Source of the DNA: Vulcanimicrobiota bacterium
GTDB lineage: Bacteria; Vulcanimicrobiota; Vulcanimicrobiia; Vulcanimicrobiales; Vulcanimicrobiaceae
Assembly (NCBI GenBank): GCA_027459645.1
Contig: DAIDHQ010000039.1
Location: 1-64,000 of the forward strand
Direction of reading: 5' to 3'
Length of the DNA stretch: 64,000 nt
Positions 1 to 12,502 of the stretch are shown here, one piece after another. The notes under the pieces are model-generated. The model searched no databases. It worked only from the letters and a program-made list of their open reading frames with translations, and was not told the DNA's origin. The position numbers and the translations under genes were made by a program. Numbering within the stretch: position 1 is the first letter of the stretch; the number at the start of each line of letters is the position of its first letter.

Positions 1-287
1 TCGAGCTACCTTCGCCCCTTGTAGGAGCGCCGCGTGCAATTCCGATTTTCCAACATCGATTCCGACAAAATCCAACGCCTCATCTCCTCCGCGAAATCCC
101 TCTGATTCATGCAGGCTACCGCGTGTGCGGCGCCTCCCATACTGTCCGATCTTTGGGGAGAGCACAATGCGGCCGAGCATCTATCTGAGCACGGACTCGA
201 GGTCACAGGATGACGCGATGTCCCGGCCGCAGGTCCCCTTCGCCAGAGGACCGCTGCCAACATATCAGGATGACACAAGCGCTTCGC
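1..287. other. Non-coding stretch with short CAGGATGA repeats
   Basis: I see no convincing complete gene here. The motif CAGGATGA occurs three times, at 206-213, 266-273 and 289-296, the last one running into the end of the neighbouring minus-strand gene. On the plus strand 25-105 would encode a short tail resembling the C-terminus of a PilZ-like domain (reading FRFSNIDSDKIQRLI), but it is preceded by an in-frame TAG at 22-24 and has no usable start, so it is at most a remnant. Confidence 0.4.
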
Positions 288-1334
288 TCAGGATGAAACG
301 GTATAGCCGATCGCCGCGAGCACGCGCTGCGTATCGAGGGCTTCCCGGAAGGTCGGTAACGCGCTCGAGCCGGTTTCGATCTGCTTGACGAACTCGTCGT
401 AGAGTTCCATGAGCAGCGGCACGTTGGCGCTGGCGCGTTCGCTCAGCATCGCGAACTTTGCGTATGGCGAAGGTTTGCAGCCCAGTTCGTTCGTCTCTTC
501 GTCGTCGACCGTATAGAGCGTCATGTCCGCGATGTCTTTGCCGCTCGCGACCGCGGTGCGGTTTTCGCCGTGCACGGCCATCGTGAACGATTCGACGAAC
601 GTCGTGCCGTCGACAGTGAGGCGCCCGACGGCGCCGTCGCCGTAATCGAGCAACGCGAACGCTCCGTCGTCTACGGTACTGCGAAACTCACCCTCGCCGT
701 CACGCCGCACGGGATTGGCCGTACGCAGGAAGCCCTGCACGCGCCGCGGCGGCCGGCCGACCGTCCAATTCGCGCTATCGATCACGTGCGAGAGCAACGC
801 ACCGGCAATTCCGCCACCGCGATCGTGCTCGAACCACCAACCGCGCGAACGGGTGCCGGAGGCTCGCAGAAACGACATGTATTGCGTGATCTCGATTTCG
901 CGCAGCGGGGAGAGGTGCCCGTTCTCCACCAGTTGCTTGAGCGCCATGCGTTGCGGAACGAAGCGAAACTCGTGCGCGACGCCGCACGCCGTGCCCGCGT
1001 TTTCCGCAGCGGCGACCATCTCTTCGGCCTCCTCAACATTCAGCGCGAACGGCTTTTCGCACATCACGTTGAGGCGTTTATCGAGCGCTCCCAGGACGTC
1101 GTCGCGATGTGTGAAGGGCGGAGAGGCGATCGTGATGCAGTCGAGCTCGCAGCCGTCGAGCATCTCGCGGGCGCTTGCAAATGCATGCGGGATGTTGCGC
1201 TCCTTCGCAACCTTTGCGGCGCTGTGCGGCGAGGCGAGCGCGACGACGTCGAAACGCGGATGCGCGAGCAGCGCCGGAAGGTGAGCGTGGACGCCGAAGC
1301 CGGCGCCGACGATGCCGATGCGATAGATATTCAC
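288..1334 (-). CDS. Gfo/Idh/MocA family NAD(P)-dependent oxidoreductase
   Basis: A 348-residue protein of usual family length. The N-terminus is a Rossmann dinucleotide fold (GIVGAGFGVHAHLP, residues 7-20), followed by the family EKP signature (CEKPFALN, residues 92-99, whose lysine contacts the cofactor and substrate) and a C-terminal GFO_IDH_MocA_C-like domain. These enzymes oxidise or reduce sugar or cyclitol hydroxyls in the cytoplasm; the substrate here cannot be read. The GTG start at 1334 overlaps the stop of the upstream aminotransferase in a GTGA junction, so it is the last gene of the operon that begins at 5359. Confidence 0.85.
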   Translation of the reverse strand: MNIYRIGIVGAGFGVHAHLPALLAHPRFDVVALASPHSAAKVAKERNIPHAFASAREMLDGCELDCITIASPPFTHRDDVLGALDKRLNVMCEKPFALNVEEAEEMVAAAENAGTACGVAHEFRFVPQRMALKQLVENGHLSPLREIEITQYMSFLRASGTRSRGWWFEHDRGGGIAGALLSHVIDSANWTVGRPPRRVQGFLRTANPVRRDGEGEFRSTVDDGAFALLDYGDGAVGRLTVDGTTFVESFTMAVHGENRTAVASGKDIADMTLYTVDDEETNELGCKPSPYAKFAMLSERASANVPLLMELYDEFVKQIETGSSALPTFREALDTQRVLAAIGYTVSS

Positions 1335-2593
1335 AATACCTCTTCGATGATGTCGATTGCGCGAAAGAGATCGTTTTCCGGGATGACCAGGGGCGGGGTA
1401 ATCGAGAGCACGTTTCCGGCCGGCCCGGATTGCAGTAACACGACGTTACGCGCGAGGGACGCCTTTACGACGCGCTCCGCCGCTGCGCCGTCTTCAAGTT
1501 CTACGCCCCACATCATGCCGCGGCCGCGAATCGCACGTACCCCGTCGTGCTTGCGCAGCTTCGCGAGGCGTTCGCCGAGCGCGCTCCCCAGCGTGCGGGC
1601 GCGCACCAGCAACTTGCGGCTTTCGATCTCGCCGATGACGGCAAGCGAGGCCGCGCACCCCATCGGATTGCCCAAGTAGGTCGAGGTGTGAAGCGCTTCT
1701 CCCGCGGAACGTGGCCACGCGTCCATGACCGGCGCGCGCGCGATCGTGGCGCTGATCGGAAATCCCCCGCCCATCGCCTTACCCATGCAAAGAATGTCCG
1801 GGACGACGCCTTCGGCATCGCATGCAAACCACGTGCCGGTGCGCCCAAAGCCGGTGTAGATCTCATCGAGGATCATCAGCACGCCCCGCCGGTCGCAAAG
1901 CGCGCGCAGCGCGGAAAGATAGCCTTCAGGCGGAACGATGCAGCCGCCGCGTCCCTGAATCGGTTCGAGCACGACCGCGGCGACGTCGTCGCGATCGGCG
2001 AGAACCGCTTCCAAAGCGTTGAGCGCGTCTTGCGTCGTCGTGCGCTGCGCGTCGGGATAAAACAGAAACGTCGTGACATCCGGAACGAGGGCGCGGAACG
2101 GTTCGACGAACTTGCGGATGCCGCTGACCGCAAGCGCACCGAGCGACAGCCCGTGATAGGCACCGTGAAACGCGACGAAGCGGTGTTTTCCCGTTGCGAG
2201 CACCGCGGTCTTGAGCGCCGCCTCGACGGCTTCCGAACCGGTCGATGCGAGAAAGGACTTTGTCAGGCCGCGCGGCGCGATCTCGCTCAATCGCTGCAGC
2301 AGACGCGCGCGCAACTCGGTTGGATGCACGTCACCCATGCCGTGCATCAAACGCTGCGCTTGACCCGCAATTGCCGAGGCGACCGCCGGATTCGCGTGGC
2401 CGACGCCGGCGACGCCGAACGCCGATTCCAGGTCGATATACTCGTTGCCGTCGACGTCGGTGATGCTCGCGCCCGACGCGCGTTCCCAGAAGACGGGAAA
2501 GTCGGCGCTCAAATAGGTGACGTTGGGCGATTCGTACCGTTCGATGTGCGGCCGCAACGCCGCAGTACGCGGGCCGGGAATGCGCTCGCTCAT
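1331..2593 (-). CDS. Class III PLP-dependent aminotransferase
   Basis: A 420-residue fold-type I aminotransferase related to glutamate-1-semialdehyde, acetylornithine and GABA aminotransferases. Visible motifs are GSEAVEAAL (119-127), which binds phosphate; LDEIYTGFGRTG (242-253), whose Asp243 contacts the pyridine nitrogen; and CMGKAMGGGFP (269-279), whose Lys272 should form the Schiff base. I chose the ATG at 2593 because it overlaps the LuxC-like stop in an ATGA junction; an in-frame GTG at 2614 is possible. It sits directly after an acyl-CoA reductase and acyl-protein synthetase, so its amino acceptor may be the aldehyde they produce. That role is inference; simple amino-acid metabolism is not excluded. 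Confidence 0.85.
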   Translation of the reverse strand: MSERIPGPRTAALRPHIERYESPNVTYLSADFPVFWERASGASITDVDGNEYIDLESAFGVAGVGHANPAVASAIAGQAQRLMHGMGDVHPTELRARLLQRLSEIAPRGLTKSFLASTGSEAVEAALKTAVLATGKHRFVAFHGAYHGLSLGALAVSGIRKFVEPFRALVPDVTTFLFYPDAQRTTTQDALNALEAVLADRDDVAAVVLEPIQGRGGCIVPPEGYLSALRALCDRRGVLMILDEIYTGFGRTGTWFACDAEGVVPDILCMGKAMGGGFPISATIARAPVMDAWPRSAGEALHTSTYLGNPMGCAASLAVIGEIESRKLLVRARTLGSALGERLAKLRKHDGVRAIRGRGMMWGVELEDGAAAERVVKASLARNVVLLQSGPAGNVLSITPPLVIPENDLFRAIDIIEEVL

Positions 2594-3813
2594 GCGTTCT
2601 CGACGCTCAACCATCGCACGAAATCCGCGATGCGTGCGCGACCGCCGTGATTGCCTTCGAGCGGCGGCCGTTGCAGTTCGCCGAAGCGGGCGATGCGGTT
2701 CGCTCCGGCGTCGATCGCGAAGGCCAGCAGCGCGTCATCGGTTGCGGCCGCCGCGACGGCTTCGATCGGTACCGCGTGCCGGCGAAGATAGGCGAGTGCG
2801 TCTGCCGTCGACCCGACCGAACGCACGGCGAGAGCGCGCGGCAAAAAGGCGGGCGGCTCGCTTTGCGGCGGATCCAGCACCGCAAGATACGTCGCGCGTT
2901 CGTTCGAAAAAACGGCACCGCTTCCGGTTGCGCTGCGAAACGCCGCCAGGTTGCGGGCGCTCGCAACGCGCGAGTTGACGTGCGCGTCGCGCTGCCCGGG
3001 CGGAAACTCGACTTCTGCGCGCTCCACCGCCGCGGCGAGCATTTCGCAAAACGCGGGGACGCCGATCGCGCCGCCTTCTTCGACGAAGAGCGCATGCAGC
3101 GAGAGGCATCCCTCGCTTTCATAAAGGACGAGATCGCGCGCGGCCCCGTCGGCGATCGCTCGCGCTTCGGCTTCGCCGCGCAGCGCTTCGCGAGAAACGT
3201 AGCCGACGGTGGCCTTCGAACCGAAACCGATGAAGCGCCCCGGACCTACCGTTCGCGCGATCGATGCGAGGGTGGCGTCGCTTCCGAAGGCGACGACGGC
3301 ATCGAACGCTTGCAACTCGACGGCGTCGCTTTCGCTTTCCCACTGTTCCGCGCGCGCGGCGGAGGCACACGCGTCGAGCTCCTCGCTAAGCGTCGCAAAA
3401 AATGTTCGCACGAGTCCGTCTTCGCGATCTTTCACGAGCACGTCGCATTTCGCACAGAGCGCGAGCACGGCCGGTACGATCGAGACGCCGATCGTCGTGC
3501 GGCTGGAAATCACGCACACTGATCCGATCGGAAGTGCGAGCGCCCGCGTGCGGCCAGAGCGAGTTTGTGGTGCGTCGAGGACGTCGAGCGAACCGAGCTC
3601 GCTCTCGATCGTCGCTTCGAGCGCGGCGCGCGTGATGGATCCGAAAAGCTGATCGAGCGCGTACTCGACGACCGGAAGCGAATACCCCGTACGTTCGACG
3701 ATCGGATCGAGCAAGCGCACGCGCGGGGGAAAGTCCGCGTCGGTCCAGCGCGCTGCAGCATCCGCGACGGCCGCGACGATCCGCCGCGACGCAACGCCCT
3801 GCAACGCCGTCAT
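2590..3813 (-). CDS. LuxC-like acyl-CoA (fatty acid) reductase
   Basis: A 407-residue member of the LuxC acyl-CoA reductase family, a branch of the aldehyde dehydrogenase fold that makes fatty aldehydes from acyl thioesters with NADPH. Diagnostic stretches are FIGFGSKATVGYVSRE (194-209) and DLVLYESEGCLSLHALFVEE (227-246); Cys236 is the likely acyl-accepting nucleophile. The C-terminus keeps the GRARIADFVRWL block typical of LuxC. It overlaps both neighbours by 4 nt, and the adjacent LuxE homologue would activate and deliver the acyl group. No luxAB luciferase genes are nearby, so bioluminescence is not implied. Confidence 0.85.
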   Translation of the reverse strand: MTALQGVASRRIVAAVADAAARWTDADFPPRVRLLDPIVERTGYSLPVVEYALDQLFGSITRAALEATIESELGSLDVLDAPQTRSGRTRALALPIGSVCVISSRTTIGVSIVPAVLALCAKCDVLVKDREDGLVRTFFATLSEELDACASAARAEQWESESDAVELQAFDAVVAFGSDATLASIARTVGPGRFIGFGSKATVGYVSREALRGEAEARAIADGAARDLVLYESEGCLSLHALFVEEGGAIGVPAFCEMLAAAVERAEVEFPPGQRDAHVNSRVASARNLAAFRSATGSGAVFSNERATYLAVLDPPQSEPPAFLPRALAVRSVGSTADALAYLRRHAVPIEAVAAAATDDALLAFAIDAGANRIARFGELQRPPLEGNHGGRARIADFVRWLSVENA

Positions 3814-4931
3814 CGGGTGAGTAAATCTTCCGCGGTGAGCGAACAGCCGCGCAACTGTGCCCCGGCCTCGCGCCCCATCAGCACGAGCCCCTCGTCGAAT
3901 TGCACGCCCAGGTCCTCGGTTTCTATCGCGACGACCGACGAACGATTAGCGAGATCGACGTGCACGAGTGCCCCCACTTTACCGTGCGCGAGCGTGCGGC
4001 CGTCCGGACCGACGACGCGCGTGCGCATCCACGGCCCGCACTGCTTATAGCGCGGTTCGGTCGCCGCGTCGCGAGCTTGGCGCAGCAACACGTCGTCGTA
4101 ATATTGCGAAGCGAGTTCCGTCATGCCGTATTCGGCAACGATCGAACCGAGCGCGATGCCGAAGCGGCGCGCGGCGCTTGCGTAGAGTTCGTGGCGGTCC
4201 ACGTAGCGCGAACGCCCTTTGAAGCCGCCGGTTTCCATGAAACGCGAGCCGGCCGGCAGGGCAAAATACCGCTTGCGTTCGTCGAGAGCGTCGAGCAGAT
4301 GCACGAGCGCAAAGGCGGTCGTGGCGATCAGGAGCGGACGGTCGTGTTCGACGGCGGCTTCGATCTCGCCGATCAGCGCGTCGACCTGTAAGGTGCCGTC
4401 GTGGATGAACCAGCCGGTTTCGCTGTCCCCTAGAAGGGCCGAGACGTGGCGCATCATGTAGCCGAGCGACGAATGCGGATTCTCGGCCGGGTTGGGCACC
4501 AGGTTCACGTAGCGTAGTTGCACGTGGTCGGGAAGCATGAAACGATCGAACGCGGCCAGCGACGCGGCGTCATAGAGCGCGCCGCTTTCCATGTAATGGC
4601 GCCCCGATTCGCCTTGCGTCGTTCCGCTCGTTTCAAAAACCAGGGCGGCGTCACGCGGGTCGAACGTGGCAAGCGTCGCTTCTTTCAACGCCGCGCTGGG
4701 CAACGGCGGAATCTCTTCCCACGACTGCGGCAGACGATCGGGGGTGAAGCCTTTTTGCGCGCAGTACGACGCATAGGGAGCGTTGTAGCGAAGCTGATGC
4801 GCGAATACGTGCAACGCAAGCTCGTTGAATTGCGCGTCGCTCAAGGGTATGTCGTGCGCGTGCCAGCGGCGGATCGCTTCGAGAATCGCGCGATCGAGTT
4901 GCTCGGCTTCTTCGCGATACGCTGCGGTCAT
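3810..4931 (-). CDS. LuxE-like acyl-protein synthetase
   Basis: A 373-residue adenylate-forming enzyme of the LuxE/acyl-protein synthetase family. The glycine/serine/threonine-rich ATP-binding motif (FETSGTTQGESGRHYM) lies near residue 95, and AEYGMTELASQYYD near residue 265 is the family A5-like motif. LuxE enzymes activate fatty acids as acyl-AMP, take the acyl group on a cysteine and pass it to LuxC for reduction. The ATG at 4931 overlaps the stop of the CoA-binding protein gene; a longer in-frame extension to 5051 lacks family similarity and would overlap that gene, so I rejected it. Confidence 0.85.
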   Translation of the reverse strand: MTAAYREEAEQLDRAILEAIRRWHAHDIPLSDAQFNELALHVFAHQLRYNAPYASYCAQKGFTPDRLPQSWEEIPPLPSAALKEATLATFDPRDAALVFETSGTTQGESGRHYMESGALYDAASLAAFDRFMLPDHVQLRYVNLVPNPAENPHSSLGYMMRHVSALLGDSETGWFIHDGTLQVDALIGEIEAAVEHDRPLLIATTAFALVHLLDALDERKRYFALPAGSRFMETGGFKGRSRYVDRHELYASAARRFGIALGSIVAEYGMTELASQYYDDVLLRQARDAATEPRYKQCGPWMRTRVVGPDGRTLAHGKVGALVHVDLANRSSVVAIETEDLGVQFDEGLVLMGREAGAQLRGCSLTAEDLLTR

Positions 4932-5359
4932 CGTGATCCTCCAGTGAAGCGCACGAGGTCTGTTTTGATGCACTCGTCGGCCACGACGTCGAGTCCCGCT
5001 CGTTCGGCGAGTTCGATCGCTTGCTCGTTGACGATGCCGAGTTGAAACCAAATCGCCTTGGCGCCGATCGCCACCGCCTCTTCCGCGATCGGCACGGCGT
5101 CGCTGGCTTTGCGAAACACGTCGACGACGTCGGGCGCGCCGTGAGCCTGCGCGTAGGCGGTCAGGGTCGGAAACGCCGGTACGCCGTCGATCTCGTCGAC
5201 CGCCGGATTGATCGGGACGACCTCGAAGCGGCCCAGCGCTCGAAGGTAGGTGAAGATCTCGTTGCTCGCGCGCGAGCGGTCCTTCGACGCGCCGACGACG
5301 GCGATCGTGCGGGTGCGATCCAGCAGCGCCTTGCGCTGAGCCGGCTCTCCGAGCATCAT
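4928..5359 (-). CDS. CoA-binding domain protein (YccU-like)
   Basis: About 143 residues forming a single Rossmann-type CoA-binding domain (PF13380 type). The N-terminus TIAVVGASKDRSRASNE is the nucleotide loop, and VVPINPAVDEIDG and AIWFQLGIVNEQA are conserved family blocks. Two adjacent ATGs (5359 and 5356) could serve as start. It is the first gene of the luxE-luxC-aminotransferase-oxidoreductase operon, overlapping luxE by 4 nt. The biochemical role of stand-alone members is not established; in this setting it could handle acyl-CoA, which is inference. Confidence 0.8.
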   Translation of the reverse strand: MMLGEPAQRKALLDRTRTIAVVGASKDRSRASNEIFTYLRALGRFEVVPINPAVDEIDGVPAFPTLTAYAQAHGAPDVVDVFRKASDAVPIAEEAVAIGAKAIWFQLGIVNEQAIELAERAGLDVVADECIKTDLVRFTGGSR

Positions 5360-5440
5360 CGGACGACGCGGCGGGGCGCTTGCTCGGGCCGCTCGCGCTC
5401 GGAGCTGGGACGGTGATCCTGCATGGAACGGCTGCTTCGT

Positions 5441-5448
5441 TATATAAA
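5441..5448 (+). promoter_or_regulatory. Probable -10 element of leuC
   Basis: The AT-rich run TATATAAA lies 10 nt before the leuC ATG at 5459 in otherwise GC-rich DNA, and no Shine-Dalgarno sequence lies between. The transcript would start only a few bases upstream of the start codon, suggesting a leaderless or near-leaderless mRNA. Confidence 0.35.
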
Positions 5449-5458
5449 CCTGAACCTC

Positions 5459-6742
5459 ATGGGGATGACTCTCACCGAAAAAATTCTGGCTCGTCACGCA
5501 GGCCTGGACCGCGTCGAAGCCGGCCAAATCATCAACGCCAACGTCGATCTGGTTCTTGCCAACGAGCTCTCTGCCGCGGTCGCCATCGGCGTCATGCGCG
5601 GCATAAAGGGCGCGAGCAAGGTGTTCGATCGCGAAAAGATCGCGCTGGTCGAAGATCACTTCGTTCCGGCGAAAGACGCGCAGTCCGCAAAACTCGCGAA
5701 ACTCATGAAAGATTTTGCGGCGGAACAGAAGATCACACATTTCTTCGACGTCGGCCGGGGCGGCATCGAACACGTGGTGTTGCCGCAGGAAGGTCTGGTC
5801 GCACCCGGTGAGGTGATCGTCGGAGGCGACTCTCACACGTGCACGTACGGTGCGCTCGGCGCGTTCGCGACCGGCATGGGCTCGACGGATATCGCCGCGG
5901 CGTTCGTGCTGGGCGAGGTCTGGCTGAAGGTTCCCGCTTCGATCAAGATTATCTACAGCGGCACGCTCGGGCACATGGTCTACGCCAAGGACCTGATGCT
6001 GCGTACCGTGGGCGAACTGGGAATCGACGGCGCGACCTATCGCGCGATCGAATACCACGGCAGCACGATCGACGAGATGTCGATCACGGGACGATTCACG
6101 ATGGCCAACATGGCGATCGAGGCGGGTGCGAAGAACGGCATCTTCCATGCCGACGACAAGGCGATCGCTTTCGTGAAAGAACGTACAGATCGCCCGTTCG
6201 TCGTCGAAAAGGCGGACGCCGACGCGGTCTACGAACGCGTCATCGCGATCGACGTCGCGAACCTGGAGCCTCAGGTCGCGTGCCCGCACACGCCCGACAA
6301 CGTCCATTCCATTTCGGACGTTACGCGCGACGACGTCGTCGTCGATCAAGTCTTTATCGGTTCGTGCACCAACGGGTACATCGACGATCTGCGCATCGTC
6401 GCGAAAATTCTCGAAGGGAAGAAGATCGCGTCGAACGTTCGCGTCATCGTCAACCCCGGATCCCAGCAAGTCTGGATGCAGGCCGCGCAAGAGGGCGTGC
6501 TGACGACGCTCGCCGCCGCGGGATGCGCGGTGAACACGCCCGGCTGCGGCGCCTGCTTCGGCGGTCATATGGGAACGCTCGGCGACGGCGAACGAGCGAT
6601 CTCGACGACGAATCGCAATTACGTCGGCCGCATGGGTTCGCCGAAATCCGAAGTCTATCTCGCATCACCCGCCACGTGTGCCGCTTCGGCGCTTACGGGC
6701 AAGATCACCGATCCTCGCGTTCTGGAATTGGCTGGAGTCTAA
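5459..6742 (+). CDS. leuC: 3-isopropylmalate dehydratase large subunit
   Basis: A 427-residue aconitase-superfamily enzyme of the short LeuC/HacA type, which with LeuD isomerises 2- to 3-isopropylmalate in leucine biosynthesis. The three cysteines for the [4Fe-4S] cluster are in FIGSCTNGYIDDLRI and in PGCGACFGGHMG. The start at 5459 (MGMTLTEKILARHAG) matches the usual family N-terminus; an upstream ATG at 5423 would add twelve unconserved residues. leuD follows with no gap. The close relationship to homoaconitase subunits means the substrate cannot be proved from sequence alone, but pairing with leuD favours leucine synthesis. Confidence 0.92.
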   Translation: MGMTLTEKILARHAGLDRVEAGQIINANVDLVLANELSAAVAIGVMRGIKGASKVFDREKIALVEDHFVPAKDAQSAKLAKLMKDFAAEQKITHFFDVGRGGIEHVVLPQEGLVAPGEVIVGGDSHTCTYGALGAFATGMGSTDIAAAFVLGEVWLKVPASIKIIYSGTLGHMVYAKDLMLRTVGELGIDGATYRAIEYHGSTIDEMSITGRFTMANMAIEAGAKNGIFHADDKAIAFVKERTDRPFVVEKADADAVYERVIAIDVANLEPQVACPHTPDNVHSISDVTRDDVVVDQVFIGSCTNGYIDDLRIVAKILEGKKIASNVRVIVNPGSQQVWMQAAQEGVLTTLAAAGCAVNTPGCGACFGGHMGTLGDGERAISTTNRNYVGRMGSPKSEVYLASPATCAASALTGKITDPRVLELAGV

Positions 6743-7240
6743 ATGCTGCACGGTAAAGCGCACAAATATGGCAAGAACGTCGATACCGACGTCATTATCC
6801 CCGGCAAATACTGCAACATCATCGACCCGGCCGAGCTCGGAAAACACGCGCTCGAGGGACTCGATCCCAATTACACCACGAAGATGAAGAGCGGCGACAT
6901 CATCGTTGCCGACACGAACTTCGGTTGCGGTTCCAGCCGCGAGGTCGCACCGATCGCGATTAAAGGGTCCGGCACCTCGGCGGTCATCGCGAAAAGCTTC
7001 GCACGTATCTTTTATCGCAACGCACTCAACATCGGCTTGCCGATTTTCGAGTCCGCCGAAGCGGTCGACGGCATCGACGACGGCGACGAAATCGAAGTGT
7101 TCCCCGAGAGCGGCGTCATTCGCAACATTACGAAGGGCACCGAATATAAATCCGCCGAGTTTCCGCCATTCATGCGCGAGTTGATCGACGCCGGCGGATT
7201 GGTGCCTTACGTCGAAAGGCGACTTGCCGCAAAAGTCTAA
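6743..7240 (+). CDS. leuD: 3-isopropylmalate dehydratase small subunit
   Basis: A 165-residue swivelling domain of the two-subunit dehydratase. The motif [19 protein letters not shown] and [11 protein letters not shown] are LeuD signatures for substrate recognition and contact with the large subunit. The start ATG follows the leuC stop codon immediately, so the pair is co-transcribed and probably translated in a fixed ratio. A strong terminator follows at 7248. Confidence 0.92.
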
Positions 7241-7247
7241 CTAATGA

Positions 7248-7274
7248 AACGCCGCGTAACAGCGCGGCGTTTTT
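7248..7274 (+). terminator. Rho-independent terminator after leuCD
   Basis: A perfect 9-bp stem (AACGCCGCG at 7248-7256, CGCGGCGTT at 7263-7271) closes a 6-nt loop and runs into a T tract. Confidence 0.85.
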
Positions 7275-7311
7275 CGTTCTCTTACCGACACCGAGTACTG
7301 GAGCTACCATC

Positions 7312-9153
7312 TTGAGAGCGCGCTTTGCATTTGCAGGTGCCGCCGTTCTTGCCGCCTTGCTCGCCGCTTGCGGCGGCGGCGGCGGAAGCAGCGGCCCTAA
7401 TCCCGGACCGCCGCCGACCAGCATCCCAACCATGACGCCCACGGGCGCACCGTCGCAGAACGTTACGCTCGGAGCGGCGACTTCGGCACCGTTCCCATCG
7501 GGCGCGGGCGTTAGCGGTTCCGTCGCACTGCCGGCCGGATCCGGCTCGGCCACCATCACGGTCGGCCAGTCGCCCCCCCAGGGGACGGTGGCGGTTCAAG
7601 GGCAATCGCACTCGCAAGCGATCGGCCCGAATACGGCCGTTGCCTACGTCTCGTTCACGGCTACGTCGAACCTCACCATGAACGGCATCCCGGGCTTTAC
7701 CGCGACGTTGCCGCTGACGGCGCCTACCGGAAACTATTTTGTCGCGTACTGGGCCACGTCGAGTGCGTCGAGTGCGTCGCCTGCGCCGCAGGCGCCCGCG
7801 TGGGTTTCCAGCACGACCGCAGGACAACTGGGCGGACCGAATCTTCAGGTCACGGTTCCAGCCTCGTCTACGCCCACGATCACGCTCAAGAGCGGCCAAG
7901 CACTCTATGTGGCGGTGTACGTCGGATCGTACATCCCGCCGATCAACATTTTCGGCTGCGTCGGCGTCCAGGCATCTCGCGCGTACGTCGGTGCGCCCCA
8001 GCTTTCGCATCCGGTAACGCCGGGTGACTCCTACGCCTATACCGGAACGCTCGCTCAAGCGATTTCGCGCACGCAGCCGTGTCCTCAGCCAACGGCAACC
8101 GCCAACGCGAATGTCGCGATCAGCGTCTCCGTCTCGTCGCCGTCGCCGTCGACGCTTGCGGAAACCAGCGTCGAAACCGATACATACCCGACGAACACGA
8201 CGCAACTGACGACGGTCGCGAACGTCAGCACGCAGACGTCGGGCAGCACCACGATGTTCTTCGAAAACGGGGAAACCTCGACGGACGGAAACGGCAACCA
8301 GGTCGTCACGACCTATGCGTCGCCGCTGCAGTTCGCGCAAACGCCGGAGCAGCAGGGCAACACCTGGAGCGGCGTCCTTCCTGCAACCGTCAATCAAACG
8401 GCTGCAGACGGGACGACGCTCGACCGTACGTATAACCCGAGCACGAGCGTCTTTTATAGCGAGACTGACACGATTCCGGGCGGCTACGGCTCGAACGTCA
8501 TTGCCGCGAATGCCGACGGAAGCGGAAGCTACGAACTCGGCAAGGGCTCGCCGTTCGACACGATCGTGAGCCTAGGCGCGCCGGCGGGCGGTACGATCGC
8601 CATAACGGTCGGCACGAACACGTTGACCATTCCGTCGTGGCTGCCGTCTCCGCTCAAACTCTATTCCGATCAAACCACCGACCTAGGAACCGTTTCGGCT
8701 CTCGGCGCGGTATGTTCGGCATCTGCGGTGAGCGGGTCGCCCGTCTACGAACATCTCCAGCGTCAGACCGCGTTCGTCGATCCGGTGCTCGGATATATCG
8801 AAACCGAAACGGTCGATAGCTACGACGCCAACGCCGGGAGCGGCTGGTTCGGCCCGGTGTGCGCGACGATCAACGATACGCTCGATCAATACTACGACTG
8901 GAGCCTGACCTCGCCGGGATTGTTCTTCTCGCTCAACGCCCAACCGGTTCAGGTCAACACCATCGCGGAAACGCTCAACCTCGGAGCCGGCTATGTCGCA
9001 AACGCCCACGGGCGTCGCGCCGCATCGCAAGCGCTTCGCGCGCAGCTCTCCGCGCGACTTTCCGGTATTCGATTCATTCGCGAACGCGAACGCGCGCAGA
9101 CCGTTAGAGCGGCTGCGTCGGCGCTTCGTGCTCTCCATGGAGGTCAGCTATGA
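7312..9153 (+). CDS. Large secreted lipoprotein of unknown function
   Basis: A 613-residue protein with a signal peptide ending in a lipobox (LAALLAACGGGGGSS, cysteine near residue 20), so it should be lipid-anchored on the outer face of a membrane. The rest is Ser/Thr/Ala/Gly-rich with several beta-strand-like segments; I recognise no enzyme family. The TTG start at 7312 is preceded by GGAG at 7302-7305. Its last codons overlap the start of the sedolisin gene in an ATGA junction, so the two are co-translated and may act together at the cell surface. Confidence 0.75.
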   Translation: MRARFAFAGAAVLAALLAACGGGGGSSGPNPGPPPTSIPTMTPTGAPSQNVTLGAATSAPFPSGAGVSGSVALPAGSGSATITVGQSPPQGTVAVQGQSHSQAIGPNTAVAYVSFTATSNLTMNGIPGFTATLPLTAPTGNYFVAYWATSSASSASPAPQAPAWVSSTTAGQLGGPNLQVTVPASSTPTITLKSGQALYVAVYVGSYIPPINIFGCVGVQASRAYVGAPQLSHPVTPGDSYAYTGTLAQAISRTQPCPQPTATANANVAISVSVSSPSPSTLAETSVETDTYPTNTTQLTTVANVSTQTSGSTTMFFENGETSTDGNGNQVVTTYASPLQFAQTPEQQGNTWSGVLPATVNQTAADGTTLDRTYNPSTSVFYSETDTIPGGYGSNVIAANADGSGSYELGKGSPFDTIVSLGAPAGGTIAITVGTNTLTIPSWLPSPLKLYSDQTTDLGTVSALGAVCSASAVSGSPVYEHLQRQTAFVDPVLGYIETETVDSYDANAGSGWFGPVCATINDTLDQYYDWSLTSPGLFFSLNAQPVQVNTIAETLNLGAGYVANAHGRRAASQALRAQLSARLSGIRFIRERERAQTVRAAASALRALHGGQL

Positions 9154-11294
9154 ACCGCTTCACTTCGCTTCGTGCTCTCGCTACGGCAGCAGCGTTCGCC
9201 GTCGCGCTTGCAGCCTGTGGCGGCGGCAGCGGTACGGCGCCGTCCGCGCCCGCGCAGAACGGATACAACCCGACGAATGGCATTCCGCCCGCCTTGCAGA
9301 TTCCGGATTGGAATCAAAACGTGCTCGAAGGCGCCTCGTACGCCGGCCCGTTGAACGGCGGCATGCTGTCCGTCAACGTGCTGGTCCATCAGCAGAACCC
9401 GCAAGGGCTCGAACAATACGCGCGCGACGTAAACGACCCGCACTCGGGCGAGTACCGCCAATGGCTTACGCCTAAGCAAATCGGGGAACGTTTCGGCGCT
9501 TCTATGGCCGATTATCAAAAGGCCGCAGACTACTTCCAACAGCAAGGTCTCGTCGTTGGGGCGTGGCCGCAACACATGCTGCTGACCGTTTCCGGCGAGC
9601 AAGCAAAGATGGAGCGAGCGTTCGGAACGACGTTCGGGCGCTTCTCGCGTTTCGGCCAAACGTTCGTGGCCCCGACGTCGACGCCGCACTTTTTGAGTGC
9701 GATTCCCGTCGATGCGGTTGGCCGTCTCGTCAGCTACGAACCCATGCACAGCTACATGATGAATCCGCCGCGCGTGGGTGCTGCCGTCAATCTCGGCTAT
9801 TCCCCGCAGGTCGTGAGAGCAGCGTTCGATCTCAACAACGCGTACGCCCAAGGCTTTAACGGCAGCGGCGTGACGATCGCCATCATCGGCACCGGTCCGA
9901 TCGATACGGCCAACGGCAATGCCGGTGCGGCCTGCAATGTCGGCGGTGCGACGACGGGCCCCGAAGGCGACTACGATCTCAGCGCGCTCACCGCAATCTA
10001 TGGCGCGAGCGCCGCAAACGTCTACGAACAATGCGTGACGGCCAACGGCGTTGCTGCAGGTTTGCAGAATTCTGGCATCCCGACCACCGCGCCGAATCCC
10101 ACTCCACTCCCGCCGGGTGCGACGCCGCCGCCGGGTAATAACTTCTTTCCGTATTCGAACGCGTTTGCAACGCCGCCGCCGGTTACGTCGCCGTCATGCA
10201 GCGGCACGCTGCCGGCATGTAATCCGGAAGACGGTGAAGCGCAACTGGACGTGCAGCAAGCCTCGACGCTCGCGCCGGGTGCGACGGTCGATTTCTATCT
10301 GGCGTACAATGCGGCCGATTGCTTCACGTATTTCCCCACGCCGTGCGCGACGTCGGGATCGAATGCCGGGCAACCTCTCATCGGGCTATCCGAAGCAGAC
10401 CCCGAGATTCAGCAAGTGATCGCCGACGACACGGCCGACGTCATCTCGATGAGCTACGGCGGCGGCGAAATTCAACAATTCCCGAACGGCGCGACGAGCT
10501 ACCAAGACTCGTACTATCATCTGGAGTTCGCGGCGCTCGCGGCCGAAGGCATTGCCGCGTTTGCCTCTTCGGGTGACAGTGGTTCGGCGGAGTGTCTGAG
10601 CCAGTTCGGTTATCTGCCGCAGCCGTGCGTGAGCTATCCGTCGGGAGATCCATACGTCACCTCGGTCGGCGGCGTCACCGCGTACATCAGCGCATTCGGC
10701 GCGCTTCAAGGGCCGATTTTGGCCTGGGGGATTTCGACGTCGGAGCCCGCCGGCTACGGCGCGGCCGGTGCGACGGGCGGCGGAACCTCAACGTTCATGG
10801 CGGCACCCGTCTGGCAACAGCAAGCGCTCTCGCCTGCACCGACGCTACGCGAACAGCCCGACGTCTCGATGATCGGTGATCCGAACACGGGCGTCACGAT
10901 GTTCTCCAATGCGCGGTTCGGTGGTGCGCCGAACGACATCGGCGGAACGTCGGTCGCTGCACCGGAAATGGCGGCCGTGTGGGCGCTCGTACTGAGCGCG
11001 TGCAAGGCGCATCCCGGATCGGGTATGTGTCCCGCTTCCGGAAGCGGTCACTACTGGCGCTTAGGAAATGCGTCGCCGTATTTCTACACGGTCCTCAGCG
11101 GCAAAGCCAATCTGCCGTACGCGAGCACGATCTACGACGTGCTCTACGGCAGCAACGAGATGCAGACGACCGGAACGCCCGGGGTTCCCGTTCCGGGTGC
11201 ATCGGCGATGCCGGGGTACGATGAAACCACCGGCGTCGGCGTTCCATACGCGGGCCATCTGATCCAAGCGATCAGCGGCGTGTCCGTTCCGTAA
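9150..11294 (+). CDS. S53 family (sedolisin/kumamolisin) serine-carboxyl peptidase, lipoprotein
   Basis: A 714-residue secreted peptidase. It has a lipobox signal (VALAACGGGSG), a pro-kumamolisin activation domain (about residues 60-200) and an S53 catalytic domain. The expected Glu363 and Asp367 lie in EDGEAQLDVQ, the catalytic Ser601 in GGTSVAAPEMA, and the conserved SSGDSGSAEC block is present. Sedolisins are acid-active endopeptidases that self-cleave their propeptide outside the cell. The gene overlaps the upstream lipoprotein by 4 nt and is followed by a strong terminator. A Pro-rich insert (near residue 315) splits the catalytic domain. Confidence 0.92.
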   Translation: MNRFTSLRALATAAAFAVALAACGGGSGTAPSAPAQNGYNPTNGIPPALQIPDWNQNVLEGASYAGPLNGGMLSVNVLVHQQNPQGLEQYARDVNDPHSGEYRQWLTPKQIGERFGASMADYQKAADYFQQQGLVVGAWPQHMLLTVSGEQAKMERAFGTTFGRFSRFGQTFVAPTSTPHFLSAIPVDAVGRLVSYEPMHSYMMNPPRVGAAVNLGYSPQVVRAAFDLNNAYAQGFNGSGVTIAIIGTGPIDTANGNAGAACNVGGATTGPEGDYDLSALTAIYGASAANVYEQCVTANGVAAGLQNSGIPTTAPNPTPLPPGATPPPGNNFFPYSNAFATPPPVTSPSCSGTLPACNPEDGEAQLDVQQASTLAPGATVDFYLAYNAADCFTYFPTPCATSGSNAGQPLIGLSEADPEIQQVIADDTADVISMSYGGGEIQQFPNGATSYQDSYYHLEFAALAAEGIAAFASSGDSGSAECLSQFGYLPQPCVSYPSGDPYVTSVGGVTAYISAFGALQGPILAWGISTSEPAGYGAAGATGGGTSTFMAAPVWQQQALSPAPTLREQPDVSMIGDPNTGVTMFSNARFGGAPNDIGGTSVAAPEMAAVWALVLSACKAHPGSGMCPASGSGHYWRLGNASPYFYTVLSGKANLPYASTIYDVLYGSNEMQTTGTPGVPVPGASAMPGYDETTGVGVPYAGHLIQAISGVSVP

Positions 11295-11313
11295 GGGAGA
11301 CCGCAGAAAGCAC

Positions 11314-11348
11314 AACGAGCGTTCCAATGTGGAACGCTCGTTTTCTTT
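11314..11348 (+). terminator. Terminator after the sedolisin gene
   Basis: Arms AACGAGCGTTCCA (11314-11326) and TGGAACGCTCGTT (11330-11342) form a 12-13-bp hairpin with a very short loop, followed by TTTTCTTTTT. Confidence 0.85.
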
Positions 11349-11366
11349 TTGCGACGTTACGCAGAT

Positions 11367-11975
11367 CTAGAGAGGTGGATTGCCCGTTCCGCCGCCCACG
11401 CCGCTAAGTCCCGGATCGGCGTTGAGATTGTTGATCCATTTCTCTTTCGGCCGATACGCGGCCGTGAACGGCACGTTCAACTTCGGATCATTGTACATGC
11501 CGATCATGTCAGTCGTGCCGTCGAGGCGTCCCGACATCAAGATCGTCGAACCGTTCGGTAACGAAACGACCATGCGAATATTTTGACCGTCGACCGATCC
11601 CGACAACGGATAGCGCTTGTTGTGTTGGTTGTCGAGATAGGTGCCGGTGACGGCGTCGCCGGTCTGCTTGAGATTCATATGATCGTAAGTGGTAACGGGG
11701 CCGTTTTGGATCTGCACTTCCCAAACGCCGTCGATTCCTTGACGGGCGTTGACCGGCGGTTTAGGCGTCGCACCGGCCTTAGCGCCTGGTGGTGCGGTCG
11801 GACCGAGGAGATTCTGCAGCGCCGGATTGGGCGTCGGCGTAGCGGGCACGGCCACCGGCGCGGCAGACGCGGGCGCCTGCGTCACGTTCGGTGGCGCCGG
11901 AGGCGGGGTCGGGTTGGACTGGGGCGCCGCGGCGATCAGGGCGGCGGCCAGAACGATGGTAACCGGGTATTTCAC
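11367..11975 (-). CDS. Secreted protein of unknown function
   Basis: About 202 residues. The N-terminus (VKYPVTIVLAAALIAAAP) is a short signal peptide, followed by a Pro/Ala-rich linker (residues 20-80) and a globular domain (80-195) with alternating strands (GIDGVWEVQIQNGPVTTYDH, GDAVTGTYLDNQHNKRYPL, GQNIRMVVSLPNGSTILMSG). That domain resembles the eight-stranded barrels of lipocalin-like secreted proteins, but I cannot assign a family. The GTG start at 11975 places the hydrophobic segment at the N-terminus. It follows 12502-11993 on the same strand with 17 nt between. Confidence 0.65.
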   Translation of the reverse strand: MKYPVTIVLAAALIAAAPQSNPTPPPAPPNVTQAPASAAPVAVPATPTPNPALQNLLGPTAPPGAKAGATPKPPVNARQGIDGVWEVQIQNGPVTTYDHMNLKQTGDAVTGTYLDNQHNKRYPLSGSVDGQNIRMVVSLPNGSTILMSGRLDGTTDMIGMYNDPKLNVPFTAAYRPKEKWINNLNADPGLSGVGGGTGNPPL

Positions 11976-11992
11976 GTCGGCGATTCTTCGGG

Positions 11993-12502
11993 CTAGGCGT
12001 TTTGAATCATTTGCGTGGGAGTAGGCGCCGGCTTGGGCGTCATCCGCGGTTCCCGTGGCAGCGGAATGCGGCGGGGCAGGACGCCGTGCGTATTGACCAG
12101 GGCCGTGATCTCTTTGACGTCGGCGTTGAGGGCCGCCACGGCAGGCGTCAGCGGCGGGCACTGAAGGTCGACCGACGTGTAGTCGTGCCAGAGCACCGTC
12201 GTCGTGGTGCCGAAGGACGCGCTCTTCATACAGTGGCCGGGCGTGCCGGGATTTGCCCGGGCAGCCACGACGTCGCGGAAGAAACGGGCGGCCAGCTGTT
12301 TGGTAACGCTGAAATGGACGGGCGTCCCGCCGTCCAGGATGAATTGGGCGCCCCCGTCGGACCACACCTTAATCACGTACGCGCGGGTGTTGGTCGACCG
12401 CGACGTCTGGATATGGGCCCCGTCCAGTCGCGGGGCAGCGGCAGCGGCGATGGCCAGCCCCGCAACGGCGGCGACCGTCAGGATCCCGAGCAAAATCTTC
12501 AA
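11993..12502 (-). CDS. Putative exported or membrane-anchored protein
   Basis: 169 residues beginning at a TTG (12502) with GGAGG about 8 nt upstream. Residues 1-24 form a hydrophobic signal or anchor segment. The remainder has two cysteines (near 91 and 115) that could form a disulphide, and a Pro-rich C-terminus. A longer in-frame reading to 13024 would run antisense through rpmE and was rejected. Function unknown; it probably shares a transcript with the following gene. Confidence 0.6.
   Translation of the reverse strand: MKILLGILTVAAVAGLAIAAAAAPRLDGAHIQTSRSTNTRAYVIKVWSDGGAQFILDGGTPVHFSVTKQLAARFFRDVVAARANPGTPGHCMKSASFGTTTTVLWHDYTSVDLQCPPLTPAVAALNADVKEITALVNTHGVLPRRIPLPREPRMTPKPAPTPTQMIQNA

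Follow-up and report, generated by a model that had tools for sequence, protein, structure and literature searches.

A class-wide luxE-luxC-aminotransferase operon of Eremiobacteria and its probable role in converting a carboxylic acid into a primary amine

Eremiobacteria are a little-known class of soil bacteria. We analyzed the first 64 kb (hereafter the window) of contig C39 from a 3.14 Mb genome of Candidatus Eremiobacterota, which opens with a five-gene operon encoding LuxE-like and LuxC-like enzymes and a class III pyridoxal 5'-phosphate (PLP)-dependent aminotransferase (amt). The operon is real, its core genes are linked, and it occurs throughout the class. The following features were assigned, in the order of transcription:

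4928-5359, minus strand: CoA-binding domain protein (143 aa; Pfam CoA_binding_2, 125 bits)
3810-4931, minus strand: LuxE-like acid-activating enzyme (373 aa; Pfam LuxE, 36.7 bits, cut-off 24.9)
2590-3813, minus strand: LuxC-like acyl thioester reductase (407 aa; Pfam LuxC, 129 bits)
1331-2614, minus strand: class III PLP aminotransferase, amt (427 aa; Pfam Aminotran_3, 356.6 bits)
288-1334, minus strand: Gfo/Idh/MocA NAD(P)-dependent oxidoreductase (348 aa; Pfam GFO_IDH_MocA, 89 bits)
1-81, minus strand: probable start of an IS110-type transposase (from its translation), outside the operon and ending its visible part

All five open reading frames (ORFs) of the operon exceeded their Pfam cut-offs, and they form the chain described in an earlier sequence-only reading of this DNA. 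The 4-nt overlap is exact at three of the junctions. At the fourth, the luxC and amt frames overlap by 25 nt with the longest start and by 4 nt with an internal ATG (codon 8), and 4 nt is the usual spacing at this junction among relatives. The contig begins 287 bases past the last gene, so that the operon is cut downstream and any further genes are invisible. The assignment of bases 81-1 of the minus strand rests on an apparent IS110-type transposase motif; the 27 residues gave no Pfam match. That reading called luciferase genes absent, and inspection by eye of the ORFs in the first 12 kb likewise showed none; the whole genome was not searched.

A profile detected LuxE of the window type in 122 of the 149 genomes of the phylum, and it was present in 54 of 60 relatives. 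Within the class (families f1-f3) 111 of 117 genomes gave a match, a count in which seven misses not named individually were taken as out-of-class from the order of the genome list. Five of the six in-class genomes with no match are 61-83% complete, and one (G052) is 96% complete. Outside the class, LuxE was found in 11 of 32 genomes, and all of these matches were weak (60 bits or less).

Gene linkage was analyzed in 40 stretches from 40 of the 54 relatives with a LuxE match, 38 of which are in-class. luxE and luxC lie on the same strand in all 38 in-class loci and are at most 150 nt apart in 34, the exceptions being L027 and L030 (a gap of ~1.3 kb), L056 (3.9 kb) and L061 (242 nt). luxC directly adjoins amt in 36 loci and is fused to it in one, L041, where a natural in-frame fusion (L041:6755-9433, minus strand) yields an 892-aa ORF with LuxC at residues 7-388 and Aminotran_3 at residues 457-850. 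All three genes are linked in 37 of the 38 loci, and at L056 the contig ends before amt. The f1 operons mostly adjoin leuCD and the f3 operons adjoin pyruvate dehydrogenase genes; since the trio stays together in these different surroundings, luxE-luxC-amt is taken as the core. The arrangement is far above chance because order and strand are kept over three families and two chromosomal neighborhoods. The sequence-only reading had grouped these genes from a single locus and had named their being unlinked in relatives as a point that would count against it; the conserved linkage and the natural LuxC-aminotransferase fusion indicate that they work as one functional unit.

In the two f1 loci L027 and L030, a gene for a secreted-looking protein on the opposite strand (L027:8104-9384 and L030:10864-12099) lies between luxE and luxC, and a similar gap was seen at L022. 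Two stretches from other classes of the phylum, L059 and L060, carry a different LuxE locus with a GNAT-like protein upstream, and in L060 the gene after luxE encodes a LuxC joined to an apparent PaaK/F390-type ligase. The scan of genome contigs returned only two Eremiobacterota loci (L021 is apparently on the same contig as L024), and relatives from other phyla came only from plasmid records. No relative was found among viral contigs, the PHROGs search returned nothing useful, and no E. coli genome matched the Pantoea luxE-luxC DNA. A literature search for Eremiobacterota or WPS-2 together with LuxE, LuxC or acyl-CoA reductase gave no description of the operon among the matches listed.

The LuxE-like protein belongs to the broad LuxE family, as judged by the profile match and an acyl-accepting cysteine near the C-terminus. 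A profile search aligned it with LuxE of the solved LuxC-LuxE complex (7xc6_E, E 4e-32), placing Cys363 on its cysteine, and Cys363 (RGCS) and the other motif residues are invariant across 37 sequences. The AlphaFold2 model has a mean confidence score (pLDDT) of 90.5, and its tail of residues 364-373, which directly follows Cys363, is of low confidence; in the model, the tail from residue 364 thus behaves as a swinging arm might be expected to. The model shows the PaaK-type adenylate-forming fold. Its best match was 2y4o_A (Z 26.7, root-mean-square deviation 2.8, 313 residues aligned), followed by BT_0428, 2-hydroxyisobutyryl-CoA ligase, ClxA, NatL2 and a phenazine protein, as compared with Z 16.3 for the fatty acyl-AMP ligase 3pbk. 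The closest structures are thus ligases of the PaaK type that act on small and for the most part aromatic acids; the fold itself says nothing on the substrate. LuxE of 7xc6 was not among the listed structure-search matches, which is no evidence against relatedness, as this is given by sequence. The LuxC-like protein was assigned by Pfam and by profile search of the Protein Data Bank, with weak matches to aldehyde dehydrogenases. It aligned with 7xc6_A (E 3e-27), and its Cys236, invariant across 36 sequences, matches the LuxC cysteine of the solved complex. Scores against the NCBIfam equivalogs of the luminous proteins, NF052244 and NF052251, were far below threshold (30.6 bits against a cut-off of 550 and 25.7 bits against one of 750, respectively).

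The third enzyme is a class III aminotransferase by its Aminotran_3 profile and its PLP lysine, K279, which is invariant in all 38 aminotransferases compared. The position of the gate glutamate is occupied by arginine (Arg222) in 38 of 38, and that of the carboxylate-binding arginine (Ser404 in the window) by Ser in 18, Thr in 10, Ala in 6, Gln in 3 and Val in 1, never by Arg. Both positions are presumed to have the functions that they have in γ-aminobutyrate (GABA) and ornithine aminotransferases. The Glu/Arg pair with which glutamate-dependent class III transaminases alternate between glutamate and the amine substrate is thus lost class-wide. Both residues are kept in the five best solved relatives, in four plasmid relatives and in the host paralogs L063, L064 and L067, and two HemL-like host paralogs have Asn and Ser at the pair. 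Arg222 may hold the donor carboxylate in place of the lost arginine, which would remove the usual switch. Its sequence resembles GABA and putrescine aminotransferases more than HemL, and a single-sequence search gave putrescine aminotransferase as the nearest solved structure. The tree placed it apart from the other class III enzymes of the host, so the clustering with a housekeeping function about which the sequence-only reading had cautioned was not seen; this conclusion draws on the rows other than L066, which looks badly extracted.

To place the two Lux-type enzymes, midpoint-rooted trees of 27 LuxE and 24 LuxC proteins, with a single luminous sequence, were built. In both trees the Eremiobacterial proteins join a sister set, drawn from Azospirillum, Pantoea, Priestia and Lactiplantibacillus, whose operons carry thiamine pyrophosphate (TPP) riboswitches. 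The support for this grouping is 100/100 for LuxE, on a branch of 2.59, and 98/94 for LuxC. Luminous, glycan-island, Streptomyces and Chloroflexota sequences group apart, as do Salmonella and a second Priestia sequence in the LuxE tree, and neither protein falls in the luminous clade. L085, L087 and L082 form long branches in the LuxE tree. The Eremiobacterial sequences are monophyletic (LuxE 86/83, LuxC 99/97), and since the trees follow f1, f2 and f3, inheritance looks vertical. LuxE of the window shares 33-39% identity with the sister set, as compared with 17-21% for luminous, glycan-island and other LuxE proteins; the identity of LuxE and LuxC to their luminous counterparts is 17-18%.

Among plasmid records, 27 LuxE matches were obtained and 11 loci of the sister set (L072-L079 and L101-L103) were read; these are partly non-independent, as the proteins of L075 and L079 are identical. 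These non-luminous operons come from Azospirillum, Pantoea, Priestia, Niallia and Lactobacillaceae. Each of the 11 loci has a TPP riboswitch upstream. Ten, including L077, score above the gathering threshold, and L074 (49 bits, E 1.8e-7) scores below it; L076 has two riboswitches in tandem. None was found at the gathering level in nine loci of other LuxE clades. A short-chain dehydrogenase/reductase (SDR) gene joins luxE-luxC in the seven annotated readable loci (L072-L075, L078, L079 and L102) and in L076, whose ORFs were read. Importers also recur: an ABC importer in L072, L074 and L078, with an NMT1/THI5-like substrate-binding protein in L072 and L074; an NCS2-family permease in L075 and L079 (family matches on L075); and ThiW (TIGR02359, 175 bits against a cut-off of 84) with a similar permease, recognized by eye, in L076. 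The annotations given to the proteins are fatty acid CoA ligase and acyl-CoA reductase. These operons probably form a vitamin B1 salvage module, apparently undescribed, and the simplest reading is that an oxidized thiamine fragment would be salvaged from acid to aldehyde to alcohol. No such operon was described in the literature found for TPP riboswitches with LuxE, acyl-CoA reductase or acyl-protein synthetase, judged partly by title. An SDR named oarX was reportedly once predicted to be TPP-regulated; none of the top 20 papers listed by a literature search carried that name.

Because the catalytic residues of the three core enzymes (Cys, Cys and Lys) are invariant, the enzymes probably take an acid by way of an acyl thioester and an aldehyde to a primary amine. 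On the linkage, the fusion and these residues, the acid-to-aldehyde-to-amine sequence proposed in the sequence-only reading is the best interpretation, whereas its fatty-acid substrate is not borne out, as LuxE and LuxC lie in a different clade, the rest of which is controlled by TPP riboswitches. Our preferred reading, with a probability of roughly 60%, is that luxE-luxC-amt encodes a carrier-protein-free carboxylate-to-primary-amine module, that this core is a vertically inherited trait of the class, and that the carboxylate used is probably a small molecule, polar or heteroaromatic, instead of a long-chain fatty acid. LuxE would adenylate the carboxylic acid to an acyl-AMP and then hold the acyl group as a thioester on Cys363. 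LuxC would accept it on Cys236 for NAD(P)H-dependent reduction to the aldehyde, which the PLP enzyme would aminate, probably after direct hand-over; in f1 and f2, the Gfo/Idh dehydrogenase may act on the product or its imine. These steps, their direction, the substrate class and the hand-over are proposed from the observed gene content, linkage, fusion, invariant residues and clade. Several points weigh against this reading. Every catalytic step is deduced from sequence. The size of the substrate is argued from relatives and from a fold, neither of which shows a substrate, and no gene for a source of the acid was recognizable near the operon. Since the Glu/Arg pair is lost, glutamate may not be the amino donor, and the PLP enzyme might instead be a mutase, racemase or lyase. 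Moreover, LuxC of f3 is only 21-28% identical to that of the window, so substrates may differ among the families.

Luminous LuxE and LuxC act on fatty acids, and the operon could by analogy reduce a long-chain fatty acid to the aldehyde, which the aminotransferase would convert into a long-chain amine for a lipid. TamA/TamH produce C12 amines by the same logic (PMC9594044), and the cultured member of the class is reported to contain seven unidentified lipids, four glycolipids and one polar lipid, all unidentified (PMC9758169). We consider this fatty-amine pathway unlikely, as LuxE and LuxC lie outside the luminous clade and are sister to TPP-controlled operons, and the inspected loci showed no LuxD thioesterase, acyl carrier protein (ACP) or lipid gene next to the core. 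The loss of the gate pair, shared with the HemL-like paralogs of the same genome, would suit a different scheme, in which LuxE and LuxC make an amino-aldehyde from an amino acid and the PLP enzyme rearranges it, as glutamyl-tRNA reductase (GluTR) and HemL do for 5-aminolevulinate. An aminomutase or similar enzyme of this kind is improbable, given the closer sequence similarity to GABA and putrescine aminotransferases. Its specific form, a bypass of GluTR to aminolevulinate, was rejected as unnecessary, because hemA was found in 61 of 61 class genomes, 60 of them over the cut-off.

The sister clade raises a further alternative, that the Eremiobacterial operon itself serves vitamin B1 salvage by turning an oxidized thiamine pyrimidine (the 5-carboxylate) into its 5-aminomethyl form, AmMP, a known TenA substrate. 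The TPP control of the sister operons and their ThiW, NCS2 or NMT1/THI5-type importers favor this, and AmMP is described as a natural vitamer salvaged by TenA (PMC10470507). The genomes of the class argue otherwise. No TPP riboswitch was found in window positions 1-12000 at E<=1, and none at the gathering threshold in 14 in-class loci (11 f3, two f2 and L041); the other f1 loci were covered by the genome-wide search only. No other riboswitch was found at gathering near the f2 and f3 operons. thiC matched in all 61 class genomes searched, and in 34 of 34 genomes compared a TPP riboswitch is on the thiC contig; among the 44 genomes having both, a riboswitch and luxE share a contig once, 1.1 Mb apart. 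TenA occurs in only 24 of 61 class genomes, the source genome not among them, and the f1 operon has no importer. With no TPP control, thiC in the hosts and TenA patchy, a thiamine role for the Eremiobacterial operon is not supported, and we hold the AmMP route to be quite improbable. The operon shares ancestry with the salvage set and perhaps its substrate chemistry, not its control.

The carboxylate-to-amine reading has parallels among characterized enzymes. Conversion of a thioester or fatty acid into an amine is reported for TamA/TamH, which act in tambjamine biosynthesis (PMC9594044), and for PigE, which serves that of prodigiosin (PMC8341465). As proposed for the operon, they take an acid or acyl thioester to the aldehyde, which a class III PLP transaminase then aminates, and PigE and TamH are, like L041, reductase-transaminase fusions, with the reductase N-terminal in PigE and C-terminal in TamH. 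The Tam activator is an ANL-ACP fusion (TamA), whereas the operon uses LuxE and no carrier protein was seen; the reductase of TamH and PigE is of the AAR/GluTR type, whereas that of the operon belongs to the LuxC family. TamA/TamH and PigE belong to pigment clusters, whereas the Eremiobacterial operon is a class-wide core. The luminous luxCDE system (7xc6) shares the LuxE and LuxC families and their catalytic cysteines, but the Eremiobacterial operon has neither LuxD nor luciferase and lies in a separate clade. Of the sequences sampled outside the class, the nearest relatives of both LuxE and LuxC are in the TPP-riboswitch luxE-luxC-SDR operons; these have an SDR instead of the aminotransferase, importers and TPP control, none of which the window operon has. 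The LuxE/LuxC of flagellar and surface glycan islands (PMC7874193, PMC4875605; L080, L083, L086) likewise occur without luciferase, but sit with ACP, AMP-ligase and glycosyltransferase genes and form a separate clade. GABA and putrescine aminotransferases are the nearest solved relatives of amt; the gate Glu and the carboxylate Arg are present in those inspected, and both are missing from the Eremiobacterial family.

LuxE and LuxC are usually taken to mark light production or a supply of fatty aldehyde, and databases name such proteins long-chain fatty acid CoA ligases, a label that the trees and riboswitches suggest is probably misleading in at least one clade. A wider picture can be offered tentatively. 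The whole class may depend on an undescribed carrier-free route from a small heteroaromatic or polar acid to an amine, with a rewired aminotransferase gate and with LuxE and LuxC sharing ancestry with a vitamin-salvage lineage, and the sister lineage in Proteobacteria and Bacillota may be an undescribed thiamine-vitamer salvage from oxidized vitamer to alcohol. This bears on the product of a near-universal, unnamed Eremiobacterial trait and on how bacteria recover oxidized vitamin B1 fragments, and a compact acid-to-amine cascade free of ACP and CoA would serve biocatalysis.

The two outer genes, which the sequence-only reading took to complete the set, are of narrower distribution. The CoA-binding gene, translationally coupled to luxE, lies within 150 nt of it in 25 of 25 f1 loci and has no match in f2 or f3. 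The Gfo/Idh gene lies within 150 nt after amt in 21 of the 23 f1 loci having it and in both f2 loci, where it is only 27-29% identical, and no copy adjoins amt in any of the 11 f3 loci or in L041, the locus with the fusion; its H183 and D186 are invariant and K94 nearly so. They are thus limited to f1 and to f1 and f2, respectively. A MetY-type gene (TIGR01326, 605 bits against a cut-off of 495 in L025) clusters with the operon in 17 of the 43 loci that were compared, all outside f3; in most cases it directly precedes the CoA-binding gene, and it is missing from the window. Flanking genes named by eye, cinA, nadE, prfA, pyrG and leuCD in f1 and pyruvate dehydrogenase genes in f3, give no clue to function. 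An MFS_3-type (EntS-like) exporter gene follows amt, clustered in 10 of 11 f3 loci (Pfam scan on L052:5249-6532), at a distance of ~350-480 nt in the three loci measured. Elsewhere in the window, a large ORF at 9150-11294 on the plus strand resembles, by eye, an S53 sedolisin-type secreted protease.

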